Shown in pieces: positions 4,266 through 38,077 of a stretch of DNA of 40,340 nucleotides. The stretch spans positions 63,633 to 103,972 of the forward strand of contig NZ_WLCM01000015.1 in assembly GCF_013317235.1 (NCBI RefSeq), written 5' to 3'. How positions within the stretch are numbered: position 1 is the first letter of the stretch; the number at the start of each line of letters is the position of its first letter. Source of the DNA: Leisingera sp. ANG59. Its GTDB lineage: Bacteria; Pseudomonadota; Alphaproteobacteria; Rhodobacterales; Rhodobacteraceae. The translations under genes and the position numbers were made by a program. The notes beneath the pieces are model-generated. The model was not told the origin of the DNA, ran no database searches, and saw nothing but the letters and a program-made list of their open reading frames with translations.

Positions 4266-4356
4266 ACCTGGTTCCTGAATAGTGCGTAATTGATATCTGG
4301 TGCAGAAAGAATACCACATTGGGGTGTCACGACAATGCGATTCGAAAGGACATCCG
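4266..4356. promoter_or_regulatory. Divergent promoter region between HxlR regulator and SnoaL-like gene
   Basis: This 91-base gap must contain promoters for both directions. Toward the plus-strand gene, TTGATA (4290-4295) and TACCAC (4312-4317) with a 16-base spacer could be a weak -35/-10 pair. A short dyad, TGGT-N11-ACCA (4298-4316), overlaps it and could be a regulator site. Both are weak matches seen by eye. An AAAGGA ribosome binding site precedes the ATG at 4357. Confidence 0.35.
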
Positions 4357-5127
4357 ATGAGTGCGAAAGAAATCGTACTGAACGCCGTAGCGGCGATCTT
4401 CACCTCGTTCGACCCGGAGGCGGCAGAGCAGCTGCTGGCGCCGGGCTATATCCAGCACAACCCGATGGTGCCGACCGGGGCTGCGCCTATTATCGGCTTC
4501 ATTCCGGCGCTGAAGGAAAGCGGTGTCACGATGGAGGTCCACCGGGTGATTGCCGAGGGCGACATGGTGGTGCTGCACAGCACCTATGATAACGCGCAGG
4601 CCTTCGGCGCGGAAACGCTGGTGGCCTTTGACGTGTTCCGGGTTGAGGACGGCAAGGTGGCTGAGCACTGGGACAACCTGCAGCCGCCCGCCGCGCCGAA
4701 CGCCTCAGGCCGTACATTGACCGACGGCCCGACGGAGGTCACGGATCTGGACAAGACCGCGGAGAACAAGGCGCTGGTGCAGGGTTTTGTGACTGACGTG
4801 CTGCACGGCAAGGCGCCGGAGAAGATCACCAGCTACGTCTCGACAGAGACTTACCTGCAGCACAACCCGAATATCGGCGACGGGCTGGAGGCCCTTGGCG
4901 GGATGATCCAGCATCTGGCGGAAACCGGCCAGGCGCTAGCCTATACCAGCACCCCGATTGTGGTGGCTGAGGGGAACTTTGTCTTTGCCGCCTCAGAGGG
5001 CAGCCTGGGCGAAACCCCGATGGCGTTCTTCGACCTGTTCCGGGTCGAGGACGGCAGGATCGTTGAGCACTGGGACACTGTCAGCCCGATCCCGGCAGAG
5101 ATGGCGCACGATAACGGCAAGTTCTGA
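4357..5127 (+). CDS. Tandem SnoaL-like (NTF2 fold) protein
   Basis: The 256-residue protein contains two copies of a SnoaL/NTF2-like domain. The first has YIQHNPMV and FRVEDGKVAEHWDNLQP; the second has YLQHNPNIGDG and FRVEDGRIVEHWDTVSP. The repeat spacing is roughly 125 residues. Such domains form cone-shaped barrels that act as cyclases, isomerases or small-molecule binders; the QHNP and VEHWD motifs are typical of the ester cyclase/SnoaL group. The ATG at 4357 is chosen for its AAAGGA leader. It is divergent from an HxlR regulator, so its product may respond to a small toxic compound. The reaction is unknown. Confidence 0.82.
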   Translation: MSAKEIVLNAVAAIFTSFDPEAAEQLLAPGYIQHNPMVPTGAAPIIGFIPALKESGVTMEVHRVIAEGDMVVLHSTYDNAQAFGAETLVAFDVFRVEDGKVAEHWDNLQPPAAPNASGRTLTDGPTEVTDLDKTAENKALVQGFVTDVLHGKAPEKITSYVSTETYLQHNPNIGDGLEALGGMIQHLAETGQALAYTSTPIVVAEGNFVFAASEGSLGETPMAFFDLFRVEDGRIVEHWDTVSPIPAEMAHDNGKF

Positions 5128-32929: not shown

Positions 32930-34188
32930 CAGTTCAGCAGCACACACTCGCCAACGGGTTCCGCATCGTCTCCGAGCATATGCCGGGTCTGGAATCCGCG
33001 GCGGTCGGGATCTGGGTGAGCGCCGGCGGCCGCCACGAGCGGCTGGAGCAGAACGGCATTGCCCATTTCCTTGAGCATATGGCCTTTAAGGGCACCAAGC
33101 GGCGCACGGCCCTGCAGATTGCCGAAGAAATCGAGGATGTAGGCGGTTATATCAACGCCTACACCTCGCGTGAGGTAACGGCCTACTATGCCCGGGTGCT
33201 GAAGGATGACGTGCCGCTGGCGGTGGATGTGATCGGGGATATCCTGCTGAACCCGGTGTTCGACCAGCGCGAGATCGAGGTTGAGCGCGGGGTGATCCTG
33301 CAGGAGATCGGCCAGTCTCTGGACACGCCGGACGATGTGATCTTTGACTGGCTGCAGGAGGAAAGCTACCGCGGCCAGCCGCTTGGCCGGACCATTCTGG
33401 GCCCTGCGGAACGTGTCCGTGCGTTCTCACGCGAGGATTTGCAGGGCTTTGTCGGCGAACACTACGGCCCAGGTCAGATGATCCTGGCAGCGGCGGGCGG
33501 CGTTGATCACGAGGCGCTGGTCAAGCTGGCGGAACAGCTGTTCGGCCATATGGAGGCCAAGCCCGATTTCACCGCCGAGGGCGCGCAGTTCACCGGCGGC
33601 GAGGCGCGGCAGGTGAAGGATCTGGAGCAGGCGCATTTCGCGCTGGCCTTTGAGGGGCCCGGCTACCGCGACCAGTCGATGTACACCGCGCAGATTTATG
33701 CCAGCGCGCTCGGCGGCGGCATGTCCTCGCGGCTGTTCCAGGAGGTGCGCGAAAAGCGCGGCCTGTGCTACACGATCTTCTCGCAGGCCGGGTCCTATGC
33801 CGATACCGGCTCGATGACTGTCTACGCGGGCACCTCGGGTGAGCAGCTGGAAGAGCTTGCAGGCATCACCATCGACGAGATGAAGCGTGCCGCGGACGAC
33901 ATGAGCGATGCCGAGGTGGAGCGCGCCCGCGCGCAGATGAAGGCCGGGATGCTGATGGGGCTGGAAAGCCCCTCGAACCGGGCGGAGCGGCTGGCGCGGC
34001 TGGTGCAGATCTGGGACAAGGTGCCGTCGCTGGAGCGCACCGTGGAGCGGATCAATGCGGTCACCACCAAGGATGTGCGGGAGCTGGCGGAGACCATGGC
34101 AGTTACGGCGCCTGCTGCGCTGGCGCTCTATGGCCCGGTGGCGGATGCTCCGGCGCTTGAGAGGCTGCAGGAGAGGCGCGCCGCCTGA
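32926..34188 (+). CDS. M16-family zinc peptidase (mitochondrial processing peptidase-like)
   Basis: A 420-residue peptidase. The inverted zinc motif HFLEH is at 47-51 (H47, catalytic E50, H51) and the third ligand is E127 in RGVILQEI, 80 residues on, as in the beta subunit of mitochondrial processing peptidase. YINAYTSREVTAYYARVL and RTILGPAERV are further family motifs. The start is a TTG (32926-32928) that overlaps the thrC stop; the next ATG would remove the conserved N-terminal strand TLANGFRIVSE. Physiological substrates of bacterial members are mostly unknown. Its stop shares a base with the next ATG. Confidence 0.92.
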   Translation: MTVQQHTLANGFRIVSEHMPGLESAAVGIWVSAGGRHERLEQNGIAHFLEHMAFKGTKRRTALQIAEEIEDVGGYINAYTSREVTAYYARVLKDDVPLAVDVIGDILLNPVFDQREIEVERGVILQEIGQSLDTPDDVIFDWLQEESYRGQPLGRTILGPAERVRAFSREDLQGFVGEHYGPGQMILAAAGGVDHEALVKLAEQLFGHMEAKPDFTAEGAQFTGGEARQVKDLEQAHFALAFEGPGYRDQSMYTAQIYASALGGGMSSRLFQEVREKRGLCYTIFSQAGSYADTGSMTVYAGTSGEQLEELAGITIDEMKRAADDMSDAEVERARAQMKAGMLMGLESPSNRAERLARLVQIWDKVPSLERTVERINAVTTKDVRELAETMAVTAPAALALYGPVADAPALERLQERRAA

Positions 34189-34778
34189 TGCTGCTCAACC
34201 GCCGCAAGGTCCGCATCGAAACCGAGCGCCTGACCCTCAGGCCGCCGGTGCATGCGGATTTTCACGGCTGGGCGGCGCTGCGGCTGCAGAGCCAGCCCTA
34301 CCTGACGCCATGGGAGCCGAGCTGGGCGGCGGATCACCTCAGCCGCAAGAGTTTCACCAACCGGGTCTACTGGGCGCGCCGGTCGGTCACGGGCGGCACA
34401 GCGCTGCCGCTGTTCCTGATCCGGCGCGACGATCAGCTGCTGGTGGGGGCGATCACGCTGGACAACATCCGCCGCGGCCCGGCGCAGGCGGGCACGCTCG
34501 GCTATTGGACCGGGCTGCCCTTTGCCCGCCAGGGCTACATGCGCGAGGCGATCGGCGCGGTGGTGCATCATGCTTTCACCAAGCTGGACCTCAGCCGCGT
34601 CGAGGCCGCCTGCCTGCCGGAAAACCAGGCCTCCCGCGGGCTGCTGGAGAAATCAGGCTTCAAATACGAGGGCGTTGCCCAGTCCTATCTGCAGATTAAC
34701 GGCCGCTGGCGCACCCATGTGCTCTATGCCTCCCTGCGCCACGACCGCCGCGGCAAGACGCTGGCAGGGCAGGCCTAG
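34188..34778 (+). CDS. GNAT-family N-acetyltransferase (RimJ/RimL type)
   Basis: A 196-residue acetyltransferase. The N-terminal ETERLTLRPPVHADF is the RimJ/RimL-type opening, and acetyl-CoA binding is shown by LPFARQGYMREAIGAVVHHAF. The closing motif is VEAACLPENQASRGLLEKSGFKYEG. Relatives acetylate the N-terminal residue of ribosomal proteins or other amines; the target here is unknown. The ATG shares a base with the stop of the M16 gene (TGATG). It ends the operon; a structured element begins 26 bases later. Confidence 0.88.
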   Translation: MLLNRRKVRIETERLTLRPPVHADFHGWAALRLQSQPYLTPWEPSWAADHLSRKSFTNRVYWARRSVTGGTALPLFLIRRDDQLLVGAITLDNIRRGPAQAGTLGYWTGLPFARQGYMREAIGAVVHHAFTKLDLSRVEAACLPENQASRGLLEKSGFKYEGVAQSYLQINGRWRTHVLYASLRHDRRGKTLAGQA

Positions 34779-34803
34779 GCGGCGCATTTCAGACAGCCAA
34801 TCT

Positions 34804-34971
34804 CTCCCGCCAGGCGCCTGCGCATCTGCGGATGCGCCGCTCCCGTTGGGCCGGGCGCCGCCCCTGTGGTGCGGCGCAGGTTCCGTTGCTGGCGGTGCCG
34901 CGCCCTGCGCCAGCAGGGCGCCACGCCCAACCGGGACGCGGAATTTCCAATTCCGCCGGTGCGGGCGGGAG
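34804..34971 (+). repeat. Structured intergenic element, copy A
   Basis: Nested pairings cover 168 bases. The outer stem is CTCCCGCC (34804-34811) with GGCGGGAG (34964-34971). Inside are hairpin 1 (GCGCATC, 34820-34826 with 34831-34837), stem 2 (CCCGTTGGGC, 34842-34851 with 34925-34935, one bulge) enclosing two hairpins (GCGCCGC 34855-34861 with 34871-34877; GCCCTGC 34902-34908 with 34913-34919), and hairpin 3 (GCGGAATT 34938-34945 with 34949-34956). No gene is present between 34779 and 35036. The plan recurs at 37341-37499. Confidence 0.75.
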
Positions 34972-35036
34972 CTTCTGGGTCTGGAAAATCCGGCAGACGG
35001 GGCTGACAATGCCTGTTCGCGCCCTAGAACTGCCAC

Positions 35037-35861
35037 ATGCGCGCCTTTGCCTCTCTCCTGTGCCTCCTCTTGTGCTTCAGTGCCCTTCAGGCGCAGGAGC
35101 GGCGGCAGAGCCATTGCATTGCCTTGGCACAGGCTGTGCCCGGTCTGGAATACCTGCATCAGGCCAGCTGGCAGGATCCGGTGGCAGAGGACAGCGTGCA
35201 GATCCGCTATATCGCCCATGCCTCTTTCCTGCTGCGCACCGCGGGCGGGCTGAACGTGGTCACCGATTTCACCGGCTTCACAGGCGCCGCGCCGCTGATC
35301 CCGGATGTCGTCACCATGAACCACGCCCATGAGACCCATTGGACCGCGCACCCTGATCCGGCAATCCCGCATGTGCTGGAGGGCTGGGGGCCGTTCGGGG
35401 CAGGCATCGAGCATCACCTCGACCTCGGCGAGATGCTGATCCGCAATGTGCCCACGGACATCCGCAACATGTTCGGCGGAGTCGAGGAACGGGGCAATTC
35501 GATCTTTGTGTTCGAGGCTGCGGGCCTGTGCATCGGCCATCTCGGTCACCTGCACCATGTGCCGACGCCGGAGCAATACGCGGCGCTGGGGCGACTCGAT
35601 GTGGTGATGGCGGCGGTGGATGGCGGCATCACCCTGCCGCTGGATCAGATGCTGGAGGTGCTGGGGCGGCTGCGGTCCTCGGTGATCATTCCGATGCACT
35701 GGTTCAGCGACTATTCGCTGCAGAGTTTCCTGTCCCGGACCGGCCCGGAATTTGATGTGGTGGATGAGGGTGCAAGCGACCTGACCGTTTCCCTTCGCAG
35801 CCTGCCCGGGCGCCCGACCATCCATGTGCTGCGGCCCAAGTACCTGCTGGAAGAGGAGTGA
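35037..35861 (+). CDS. MBL-fold metallohydrolase, exported, with altered metal site
   Basis: A 274-residue UlaG-like beta-lactamase-fold protein. A signal peptide (about 1-19, ending LQAQ) suggests export. Fold motifs include HASFLL (61-66), VTDFTG (75-80), NHAHETHW (95-102), GHLGHLHH (167-174) and IIPMHWF near residue 219. The usual HxHxDH motif reads HAHETH, so the Asp metal ligand is Thr; the metal site may hold one ion or be rearranged. No ribosome binding site is clear at ATG 35037. It lies between copy A of the structured element and the FAD oxidase. The substrate is unknown. Confidence 0.82.
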   Translation: MRAFASLLCLLLCFSALQAQERRQSHCIALAQAVPGLEYLHQASWQDPVAEDSVQIRYIAHASFLLRTAGGLNVVTDFTGFTGAAPLIPDVVTMNHAHETHWTAHPDPAIPHVLEGWGPFGAGIEHHLDLGEMLIRNVPTDIRNMFGGVEERGNSIFVFEAAGLCIGHLGHLHHVPTPEQYAALGRLDVVMAAVDGGITLPLDQMLEVLGRLRSSVIIPMHWFSDYSLQSFLSRTGPEFDVVDEGASDLTVSLRSLPGRPTIHVLRPKYLLEEE

Positions 35862-35901
35862 GCGCCTTGCCAGCCGCGGGGCCTTGCGGCATGGATAAGG
35901 C

Positions 35902-37320
35902 ATGACGCTGAACCCTGCCGATCCCGCCTTTGCCGCCCGCCTTTCAACCCTGCTGCCCGAGGGCGTGCTGCGGCCCGCCGAACCGCGCTATCTGGAAGAG
36001 CCGCGCGGCCGGTATCAAGGGCAGGCGGGGCTGCTGGCGCTGCCGCGCAGTGTGGAGGAGGTGTCCATTCTGGTCCGCGAAGCCAATGCTGCGCGGGTGC
36101 CGGTCGTGCCTTATGGCGGCGGCACCGGGCTGGTGGGCGGCCAGGTGATGCCCGAGGGCCCGGCGCCGCTGGTGATCTCGCTGGAGCGGATGGCGGCAAT
36201 CCGGGCGGTGCACGCCCGGGAAAATGTGCTGATCGCTGAAGCGGGCGCCATTCTGGCCGATGTGCAGGCCGCAGCGCGGGAGGCCGGGCGGCTGTTCCCG
36301 CTGTCACTGGCGGCAGAAGGCTCTGCCCGGATCGGCGGCAACCTCTCGGCCAATGCGGGCGGCGTCAATGTGCTGCGCTACGGCAATGCCCGCGCCCTCT
36401 GCCTGGGGCTGGAGGCGGTGCTGCCGACGGGCGAAATCTGGCATGGACTGTCGCGGCTGCGTAAGGACAACACCGGCTATGACCTCAGGAACCTCTTGAT
36501 CGGGGCTGAGGGCACATTGGGGGTGATCACCGCTGCCGCGTTGAAACTCTCGCCCATACCAGCGTCGCAAGGCACCGCGGTTTTTACCGTGACGAACCCG
36601 CAGGCCGCCATTGATCTGCTGGCCCTGGCCCGGGACCACGCGGGCGAGGGCGTCAGCGCCTTTGAGCTGATCCACCGGCAGGGGCTGGAATTTCTGGCGG
36701 AGACGCAGCCGCAGGTGCGCCAGCCTTTTGCCGCGGCGCCGGAGTGGTGCGTGCTGATCGAGTTGGGCCTGCCGCGCGGGCTGCAGGCGGAGGAAACGCT
36801 GGCAGAGCTGTTTGAAGCCGCCGAGGCGGCGGGGCTGGCCAGCGACGGGGTGATCGCCCAGTCGGAAAGCCAGCGGCAGGCGCTGTGGGCCATGCGCGAG
36901 CACATCCCGCTGGCCAACAAGGCCATCGGATCGGTGTCCAGCCATGACATTTCTGTGCCGATTTCGGACATCCCCGCCTTCATCGAACAGGGCAGGGAGG
37001 CGGTTGCCCGGCTTGGCGATTTCCGCATCAACTGCTTTGGCCATCTGGGCGACGGCAACCTGCACTATAACGTGTTCCCGGCCAAGGGCCGCAAGCGGGA
37101 GGACTACGAGGCCCTGCGGGGGGCGGTGAAGGAAGCCGTGCATGATCTGGTCCACGCCTTCGGCGGCTCCTTCAGTGCCGAACACGGGGTGGGGCGGATG
37201 AAGGCTGGCGATCTGGAGCGCTATGGCGACCCGGCCAAGCTGGCCGCGATGCGGGCGATAAAACAGGCGCTGGACCCCAATGGCATCATGAACCCGGGTG
37301 CAGTGCTGCGCGCAGAATGA
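35902..37320 (+). CDS. FAD-linked D-2-hydroxyacid dehydrogenase, GlcD/D2HGDH-like
   Basis: A 472-residue flavoprotein. The FAD-binding PCMH domain has PYGGGTGLVGG (70-80), then GGNLSANAGGVNVLRYG and IGAEGTLGVIT. The C-terminal cap has GHLGDGNLHYN, SAEHGVGRMK and the closing DPNGIMNPG. These match the glycolate oxidase GlcD and D-2-hydroxyglutarate/D-lactate dehydrogenase group, which oxidise D-2-hydroxyacids to 2-oxoacids. The histidines in HLGDGNLH are likely metal ligands. GlcE and GlcF partners are not nearby, favouring a stand-alone dehydrogenase of the D-2-hydroxyglutarate type. It starts 40 bases after the MBL gene. Confidence 0.9.
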   Translation: MTLNPADPAFAARLSTLLPEGVLRPAEPRYLEEPRGRYQGQAGLLALPRSVEEVSILVREANAARVPVVPYGGGTGLVGGQVMPEGPAPLVISLERMAAIRAVHARENVLIAEAGAILADVQAAAREAGRLFPLSLAAEGSARIGGNLSANAGGVNVLRYGNARALCLGLEAVLPTGEIWHGLSRLRKDNTGYDLRNLLIGAEGTLGVITAAALKLSPIPASQGTAVFTVTNPQAAIDLLALARDHAGEGVSAFELIHRQGLEFLAETQPQVRQPFAAAPEWCVLIELGLPRGLQAEETLAELFEAAEAAGLASDGVIAQSESQRQALWAMREHIPLANKAIGSVSSHDISVPISDIPAFIEQGREAVARLGDFRINCFGHLGDGNLHYNVFPAKGRKREDYEALRGAVKEAVHDLVHAFGGSFSAEHGVGRMKAGDLERYGDPAKLAAMRAIKQALDPNGIMNPGAVLRAE

Positions 37321-37340
37321 CGTGTGTCATGCGCGGCACG

Positions 37341-37499
37341 CTCCCGCAGCCGCGGCTGCCCGGCTGTGCCGGACCGCCTGGCGGCCTTGGGCCCGGCGCC
37401 GCCCATCCGCGCGGCGCGCCCCTTCCGGCCCAAGGGGCCTGAAGGGGCCATGCCCAACGGGAACAGGCTTTCCCTGGAAAGGCGCCTGACCGGCGGGAG
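37341..37499 (+). repeat. Structured intergenic element, copy B
   Basis: This 159-base stretch repeats the plan of copy A. Outer arms are CTCCCGC (37341-37347) and GCGGGAG (37493-37499). Hairpin 1 is GCAGCC (37346-37351) with GGCTGC (37354-37359), overlapping the outer arm by two bases. Stem 2 is TTGGGC (37387-37392) with GCCCAA (37452-37457 region), and inside it is GCGCCGC (37396-37402) with GCGGCGC (37411-37417). Hairpin 3 is CTTTCC (37468-37473) with GGAAAG (37476-37481). It lies between the convergent oxidase and apt genes. No gene is seen from 37321 to 37537. Confidence 0.72.
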
Positions 37500-37537
37500 T
37501 GCCCGGGCTGGCGGCCTGGACGGTCAGGAGAGTAGCT

Positions 37538-38077
37538 TCAGAGGCCCTCGAACTCGCAGAGCACATGCACGTCCATGCCCATGTCCTCCAGCAGCTTGCG
37601 CCCGCCCAGTTCCGGCAGATCGACGATAAAGGCGCAGGAGACGATCTCGCCGCCCAGCCGCTCGATCAGCTTGATGCCTGCGCCCGCGGTGCCGCCGGTG
37701 GCCAGCAGGTCATCGACCATCAGGATCTTCTCGCCCGGCTGGATGGCATCGTCGTGGATCTCCACAATCGCCTCGCCGTATTCCAGCTTGTAGTCCTGGC
37801 TGATGGTGGTGCCGGGCAGCTTGCCCTTCTTGCGGATCGGCACGAAGCCGGTGCCGAGCTGGTGGGCAATGGCGCCGCCCAGGATGAAGCCGCGCGCCTC
37901 AAGCCCCACAACCTTGTCGATCTGCTCGCCGGCATAGGGGTGCAGCATCTGATCGATTGCCATGCGGAACCCGCGCGGATCGGCAAACAGGGTGGTCACA
38001 TCGCGGAACATGATCCCTTCGTGCGGGAAGTCGACGATGGTGCGGATGTAGTCCTTGACGGCGGGTTTCTTGGGCAT
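37538..38077 (-). CDS. apt: Adenine phosphoribosyltransferase
   Basis: A 179-residue type I phosphoribosyltransferase that makes AMP from adenine and PRPP in the cytosol. The PRPP-binding motif [14 protein letters not shown] is at 118-131, the substrate-hood region is [11 protein letters not shown], and [14 protein letters not shown] is conserved. Length is normal. It is downstream of the DUF418 gene on the minus strand, 117 bases away, with a 7-bp hairpin between them. The gene mtnP, which releases adenine, lies two genes upstream. Confidence 0.95.

Follow-up and report, generated by a model that had tools for sequence, protein, structure and literature searches.

What are the two multi-hairpin repeats that share one plan of arms and stems in Leisingera sp. 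ANG59, is their fold under selection, and why do they sit just behind genes? Both copies, A and B, lie within the window, the 40,340-nucleotide stretch of contig NZ_WLCM01000015.1 analysed here, and their parts and neighbours are collected in the table below. We find that A and B are members of a dispersed non-coding REP/BIME-like family of Rhodobacteraceae with a unit design of its own.

Two head-to-head pairs of half-units

A sequence-only reading had delimited copy B correctly, with CTCCCGC and GCGGGAG in place at its edges, and the shared arms, the GC-rich hairpin and the motif GCCA-Y-GCCCAAC that it ascribed to both copies are all found in the sequence. It had placed their starts 20 to 26 bases after plus-strand stop codons; the measured distances are 25 nt for copy A (TAG at 34776-34778) and 20 nt for copy B (TGA at 37318-37320). 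The genes on either side of copy B are convergent, with stops 20 nt and 38 nt away from it. The exact sequence GCCANGCCCAAC occurs in the window at positions 34920 and 37447 only. The oxidase protein next to copy B has its nearest named genomes in Leisingera sp. ANG1 and SS27 (93 and 92%).

Both copies are composed of a half-unit of about 73 nt. It opens with CTCCCGC, followed by hairpin 1, whose sequence varies; then come (G)TTGGGC and NNGGC, and it closes with hairpin 2, which is rich in GC. Halves are found alone or paired head-to-head, and A and B are both pairs. A second type of half (type 2) carries CTCCCGCGCCCGCAGG..CCTTGGCGGCCTTGGGC; copy A combines type 1 with type 1, copy B type 2 with type 1. 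This composition bears on the first hairpin, which the sequence-only reading had compared between A and B as pairs that changed together. Because the 5' halves differ in type (type 1 in A, type 2 in B) these are not homologous pairs, and the comparison is not covariation. The pairing GCAGCC/GGCTGC proposed for hairpin 1 of B does exist there but is restricted to B and a handful of relatives: GCACCC replaces GCAGCC in the majority of the 20 B orthologues aligned, and the conserved pairs of the 5' arm in this alignment are CCGC/GCGG and CCGGC/GCCGG.

Table. Copies A and B, their parts and the neighbouring genes (window coordinates)
Feature	Position	Strand	Remark
GNAT acetyltransferase gene, 5' of copy A	34188-34778	+	
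Copy A, head-to-head pair of type-1 halves	34804-34971		
Copy A, 5' half, type 1	34804-34877	+	C16:98436-98509 in own genome
Copy A, 3' half, type 1	34900-34971	-	C16:98532-98603 in own genome
Metallo-beta-lactamase-fold gene, 3' of copy A	called from 35136	+	codirectional with the GNAT gene
FAD-linked oxidase gene, 5' neighbour of copy B	35902-37320	+	
Copy B, head-to-head pair of half-units	37341-37499		CTCCCGC to GCGGGAG
Copy B, outer arm CTCCCGC, invariant half-unit edge	37341-37347	+	from orthologue alignment
Copy B, 5' arm, type-2 hairpin 1	37350-37384	+	CCGC/GCGG around CCGGC/GCCGG
Copy B, TTGGGC arm	37387-37392	+	
Copy B, hairpin 2a	37396-37417		GCGCCGCCC..GCGCGGCGC
Copy B, hairpin 2b	37418-37448		two-sided changes in 8 of 14 pairs across orthologues
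Copy B, GCCCAAC arm	37452-37458	+	
Copy B, 3' arm, hairpin 1 of the second, type-1 half	37459-37492	read on -	compensated changes
Copy B, outer arm GCGGGAG	37493-37499	+	
Phosphoribosyltransferase (apt-like, adenine phosphoribosyltransferase-like) gene, other neighbour of copy B	37538-38077	-	

Persistence in place and compensated stem changes

Copy B is located between the same convergent genes in all 21 genomes of the genus, its own included, and is eroded in one of them (G001). In the other 20 genomes the element has a mean pairwise identity of 0.80 and its flanks 0.28 and 0.30, compared with 0.82 and 0.90 over the final 300 nt of the neighbouring genes and 0.21 for shuffled flank. In 14 of the 21 genomes copy A retains both halves and its arms are unchanged; as read by eye, three more (G011, G003 and G010) keep both halves with a changed TTGGGC arm, and in the remaining four it has decayed, with the core lost in G001, the 3' half lost in G002, erosion in G006 and nothing recognisable in G008. 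A given copy is therefore dispensable. The congener G001 is the genome in which A and B are both eroded or core-deleted (L240).

A single half follows a GAPDH gene in 21/21 genomes of the genus, 7-36 nt past the stop, and has a partner in one of them. In that genome, G008 (L281), the gene after GAPDH is reversed and an antisense second half faces the first, forming the sole head-to-head pair of the 21. Among the 57 of 80 named loci that were searched with the type-1 model (R1), matches occurred only in the four that belong to the genus. At two loci outside the genus (L128, L141) the site 3' of the oxidase gene holds another GC hairpin, behind which comes a stretch resembling GGATATTT/GGAAATATCCC; GAGTATTT is present at window position 227 too.

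Both strands of the elements fold. The folding energy of copy B has a z-score of -1.71 on each strand, with 10 and 16 of 200 shuffles as stable or better, and in GC-rich DNA this quantity alone does not distinguish the element. The signal that exceeds chance is comparative and consists of two-sided changes, conservation in place and half-unit matches relative to reversed sequence.

Covariation was assessed with shuffles of partner letters and with slid partners; the shuffles ignore relatedness, and the counts given are not probabilities. For copy B, a structure of 58 pairs, drawn by hand from the alignment of 20 orthologues, which favours B's counts, is paired in 94.8% of cells. Fourteen pairs change on both sides and stay paired (shuffle mean 9.5; 1/500 reaches 14), the two-sided cells number 60 (shuffle mean 21.9; 0/500 as high) and the covariation score is 0.175 (shuffle mean 0.082; 0/500 as high), while the number of further pair types is not above the shuffles (174/500). 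Sliding the partners by 1-3 columns lowers the pairing to 40-48%. The underlying alignment (A3) omits the eroded G001, and the aligner misplaced the first six columns of G004. Unguided RNAalifold recovers the same architecture, with 13 two-sided pairs among 56. Copy A behaves similarly: the unguided fold of 11 orthologues (A4, 11 of the 14 strictly intact copies) has 53 pairs, nine of them two-sided, and 24 two-sided cells (0/500 shuffles as high for both), again with further pair types not above shuffles (204/500). Within the own genome, 23 selected type-1 halves show two-sided changes at 6 of 12 pairs, in 20 cells. Selection on structure at copies A and B, as the sequence-only reading had proposed, is thus supported, and the orthologue comparison tests it more strongly than the check which that reading had suggested: covarying pairs are present in both orthologue alignments, with compensated stem changes in excess of the shuffles, and controls for GC content leave the similarity standing.

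The two stems that appeared most conserved are not part of this evidence. The outer stem CTCCCGC/GCGGGAG is constant in B; in A, one pair out of eight varies, uncompensated. Neither copy shows a compensated change in the TTGGGC/GCCCAA stem, whose few changes break pairs. Single halves retain the words CTCCCGC and TTGGGC with no partner nearby. The earlier use of these arms as evidence of pairing is thus not borne out. Since they show no compensating change and are retained in partnerless halves, both words look sequence-recognised, and they are probably read as sequence, be it by a protein or as a mobile unit's edge.

A dispersed family at gene ends

The family was built from partial copies that BLAST and pattern searches turned up in the own genome. 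From these we derived a type-1 covariance model (alignment A1, 23 sequences: 22 of 28 type-1 units plus L046) and a type-2 model (alignment A2, 10 sequences: 9 of 11 type-2 units and one reassigned from type 1). With the best 150 of 10,823 first-look candidates scored, the type-1 model gives at least 89 matches in the own genome at E<=1 and at least 72 at E<=0.01; the type-2 model gives 45 at E<=0.1, some at the same places as type 1. A word search of 800 kb returned 53 half-unit matches, including a few overlapping double counts and seven outside spacers of >=70 bp, versus 6 in the reversed sequence. In this sample the pieces of contigs C54, C25 and C76 were picked for holding elements and C43 for its length. 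The density of halves is uneven, the word search matching 9 times in 400 kb of C43 and 23 times in 200 kb of C54; as a guess, C43 might be a plasmid or a recent acquisition. Rfam 15 has no match at gathering score, 20 loci included, and none at E<=1 in window positions 34700-37600, and a plasmid search with copy B in distant mode found none. Ten of the 84 element spacers have a short second module around CTGAGAAGC next to their halves (e.g. L120, L208, L116 and L037), and all 10 occurrences of CTGAGAAGC in 257 kb of element loci adjoin halves.

The sequence-only reading had asked where the copies lie relative to gene ends; they favour gene 3' ends, convergent ones most. The context count covers 80 loci, without the weakest 9 of the 89 type-1 (R1) matches, and the spacer set, to which 10 of the type-2 (R2) matches were added as seeds, comprises 84 spacers that hold one half or more; 50 of them are convergent, 28 codirectional and 4 divergent, and 2 lie at contig edges. 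Wherever a spacer of this set holds two halves they are head-to-head (21/21). In the 800-kb sample a half is present in 17/76 convergent, 11/210 codirectional and 2/112 divergent spacers, which gives an odds ratio of 6.8 (p 1.8e-6) for convergent versus all other spacers (13/322). In the 28 codirectional spacers the upstream stop is closer to the element than the next start (Wilcoxon p 0.0007); single halves account for 22 of them, 13 being sense and 9 antisense to the gene.

T-rich tails behind hairpin 2 are weak: the fraction of T in the first 10 nt is 0.25 in 43 sense singles versus 0.16 in spacers. U-tailed terminators were counted at 15/34 with an element versus 50/112 without one in the convergent spacers of the sample, at 31/100 in the convergent element spacers of the 84-spacer set (p 0.048), and at 10/28 versus 50/191 in codirectional spacers. 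As they are nearly as frequent in element spacers, the element is probably not a simple substitute for a terminator.

All 20 congeners have between 51 (G001, the fewest) and at least 80 matches at E<=0.01, the best 80 candidates being scored per genome. Outside the genus, 5/16 genomes from the rest of the family have any match, and 0/24 from other families of the class. When one genome per genus of the family was searched, with 33 scored in each, 20/149 matched at E<=0.001, the own genus included.

In a genome of another genus, G025, near-identical copies have spread recently. Twenty copies there, picked for similar score and length and hence not a random sample of identity, average 93% identity (median 96%) with an upstream flank identity of 0.32, and have a sharp 5' edge at CTCCCG with unrelated DNA directly upstream. 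Elsewhere thirteen copies in genome G117 average 73%, and the 13 best copies of the own genome 64%. In 17 of the 20 chosen G025 copies AAATACTC occurs within 90 nt downstream, as part of a second module ending GGGGGCAGCGCCCCC. The composite (L301-L319, e.g. L301:1001-1210) thus joins a half-unit to a module TTCATCTCTT..AAATACTCC..GGGGGCAGCGCCCCC; two of the composite matches are at contig starts.

The Pfam family Y1_Tnp, which comprises the RAYT transposases, has matches in 6/21 genomes of the genus, including the own genome (3 matches), and in 3/15 further genomes. It has none in the other 15 of the 21, nor in 8/11 unit-bearing genomes of other genera, G025 among them. A RAYT-driven REP was rejected on this absence from most of the unit-bearing genomes checked.

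Known repeats and the possible role of the element

A literature search by title and abstract start, with coverage mostly outside subscription journals, found no description of a CTCCCGC/TTGGGC half-unit family. Integron attC sites carry RYYYAAC on the outer 5' side and GTTRRRY on the outer 3' side; here the word order is reversed (GTTGGGC ... GCCCAAC), and an attC site was rejected. Rhizobium-specific intergenic mosaic elements (RIME) are alphaproteobacterial, intergenic and contain large palindromes, and the half-unit family resembles them by description, a likeness from which no kinship is claimed. With many dispersed palindromic intergenic copies at gene ends, the family has the defining features of a REP. 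Like GTAG REPs, BIMEs and REPINs it has palindromic units of opposing orientation at gene ends, but unlike the RAYT-linked GTAG REPs most genomes with half-units are without a Y1_Tnp match. GTAG REPs have a GTAG/GGAG tag on the 5' side of the hairpin, which the RAYT cleaves; here the pair finishes in GCGGGAG.

The closest description is that of the CGTC REPs of alphaproteobacteria (Di Nocera et al. 2013; PMC3733652). These are units of 20-40 bp with one hairpin, namely a stem of 8-9 bp starting AT, a loop of 4-5 nt, a tag at the stem foot that reads CGTC, TGTC or CCTC and, in most units, a CCA tail; they occupy convergent and codirectional spacers near the upstream stop, where further stem-loops may occur, head-to-head dimers dominate, and a dedicated transposase is not known. 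The half-unit family shares with them the dispersed hairpin repeats, the head-to-head dimers, the placement in convergent and codirectional spacers near the upstream stop and the lack of a known dedicated transposase. It differs in its unit, which has about 73 nt and two hairpins and carries CTCCCGC and TTGGGC where CGTC REPs have 20-40 bp and a single hairpin. A CGTC tag is absent from the stem foot, CGTC being found at positions 7-15 in 11/80 type-1 units (CGTC itself counted). Half-unit stems, e.g. GGTGCAT and GCGCCGCGC, are not single 8-9 bp stems starting A,T with a 4-5 nt loop, and in place of a CCA tail the half-units run on into TTGGGC and hairpin 2. Intrinsic terminators differ in another way. 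Their stem pairs also switch with compensation under selection, as PMC5381666 reports, but the half-unit is a multi-hairpin unit with conserved words, mostly without a U tract.

What could such an element do? The reading with most support, which we consider an evenly balanced proposition, is that of a structured element at gene 3' ends that can be used from both strands and was spread by an enzyme other than a RAYT. Transcripts running past gene 3' ends would carry the fold, which may attenuate or end transcription and/or shield the mRNA end from 3' exonucleases. As the fold is similar from either strand, a head-to-head pair could serve both convergent genes, and a single half would serve one gene; an enzyme recognising the CTCCCGC edge would have dispersed the half-units. 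This proposal takes place, orientation, local persistence and compensated stems from observation, and we infer transcription through the element and effects on termination or mRNA stability from the general REP literature (PMC3733652 and PMC1525189). The antisense singles in codirectional spacers, the weak T-rich tails, the coexisting U-tailed terminators and the decay of copy A speak against it.

The half-units may instead be selfish, non-autonomous mobile DNA, with hairpins that act in single-stranded mobilisation and gene ends as the sites of least harm. The near-identical G025 copies with their sharp edge and unrelated upstream flanks would suit such an origin, as would the decay of copy A in 4/21 genomes, the retention of edge motifs in halves without a pairing partner, and the convergent placement that is typical of REPs (PMC3733652). 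A functionless insertion should erode, whereas copy B is in place in 21/21 genomes and compensated on site between flanks that cannot be aligned, although gene conversion between copies could mimic part of this persistence and compensation; we regard purely selfish DNA as a doubtful but serious possibility. Convergent enrichment, the near-symmetric pair and the invariant words would equally fit a site that acts at the DNA level, as a cruciform or as a gyrase or nucleoid-protein site for supercoils between convergent genes, comparable to part of the E. coli BIMEs, whose binding partners the literature describes. This is unlikely in view of the single halves beside codirectional genes (22/28 spacers), where supercoils do not collide.

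Ordinary intrinsic terminators, bidirectional if paired, are a reading that we hold to be improbable. T runs do follow hairpin 2 in some sense singles (e.g. L038, L050, L062 and L088), and compensating changes are known for terminators (PMC5381666), but the T tract is missing in most elements, the paired ones have none after hairpin 2a, U-tailed terminators coexist with the elements, and a terminator could do without CTCCCGC and TTGGGC. A chance similarity of GC-rich palindromes, with which the unremarkable folding energy of B would agree, is refuted by the controls and has next to no probability: the excess of half-unit matches over reversed sequence, the orthologous conservation and the compensated changes all speak against it.

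A bolder extension of the 3'-end reading, which we offer as speculation with a small chance of being correct, is that the half-unit is the site of a putative trans-acting factor that reads CTCCCGC, TTGGGC and the hairpin shape at about 100 gene ends per genome. The family would then form a RAYT-independent 3'-end class in which paired halves are a two-way gene boundary, and G001, where A and B have both decayed, would be a genome with a weakened or lost factor. For REPs without a dedicated transposase, how they spread and why hosts keep them is an open problem, raised for CGTC REPs in PMC3733652. Here one family combines a recent, near-identical spread, in G025, with old copies held by compensating mutations, and function and mobility thereby become testable in culturable marine bacteria.

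Apart from the family, the window contains a 60-nt direct repeat (82%) at 4616-4675 and 5018-5077, within the plus-strand coding region 4300-5127, which may have arisen by tandem duplication inside one or two small genes.
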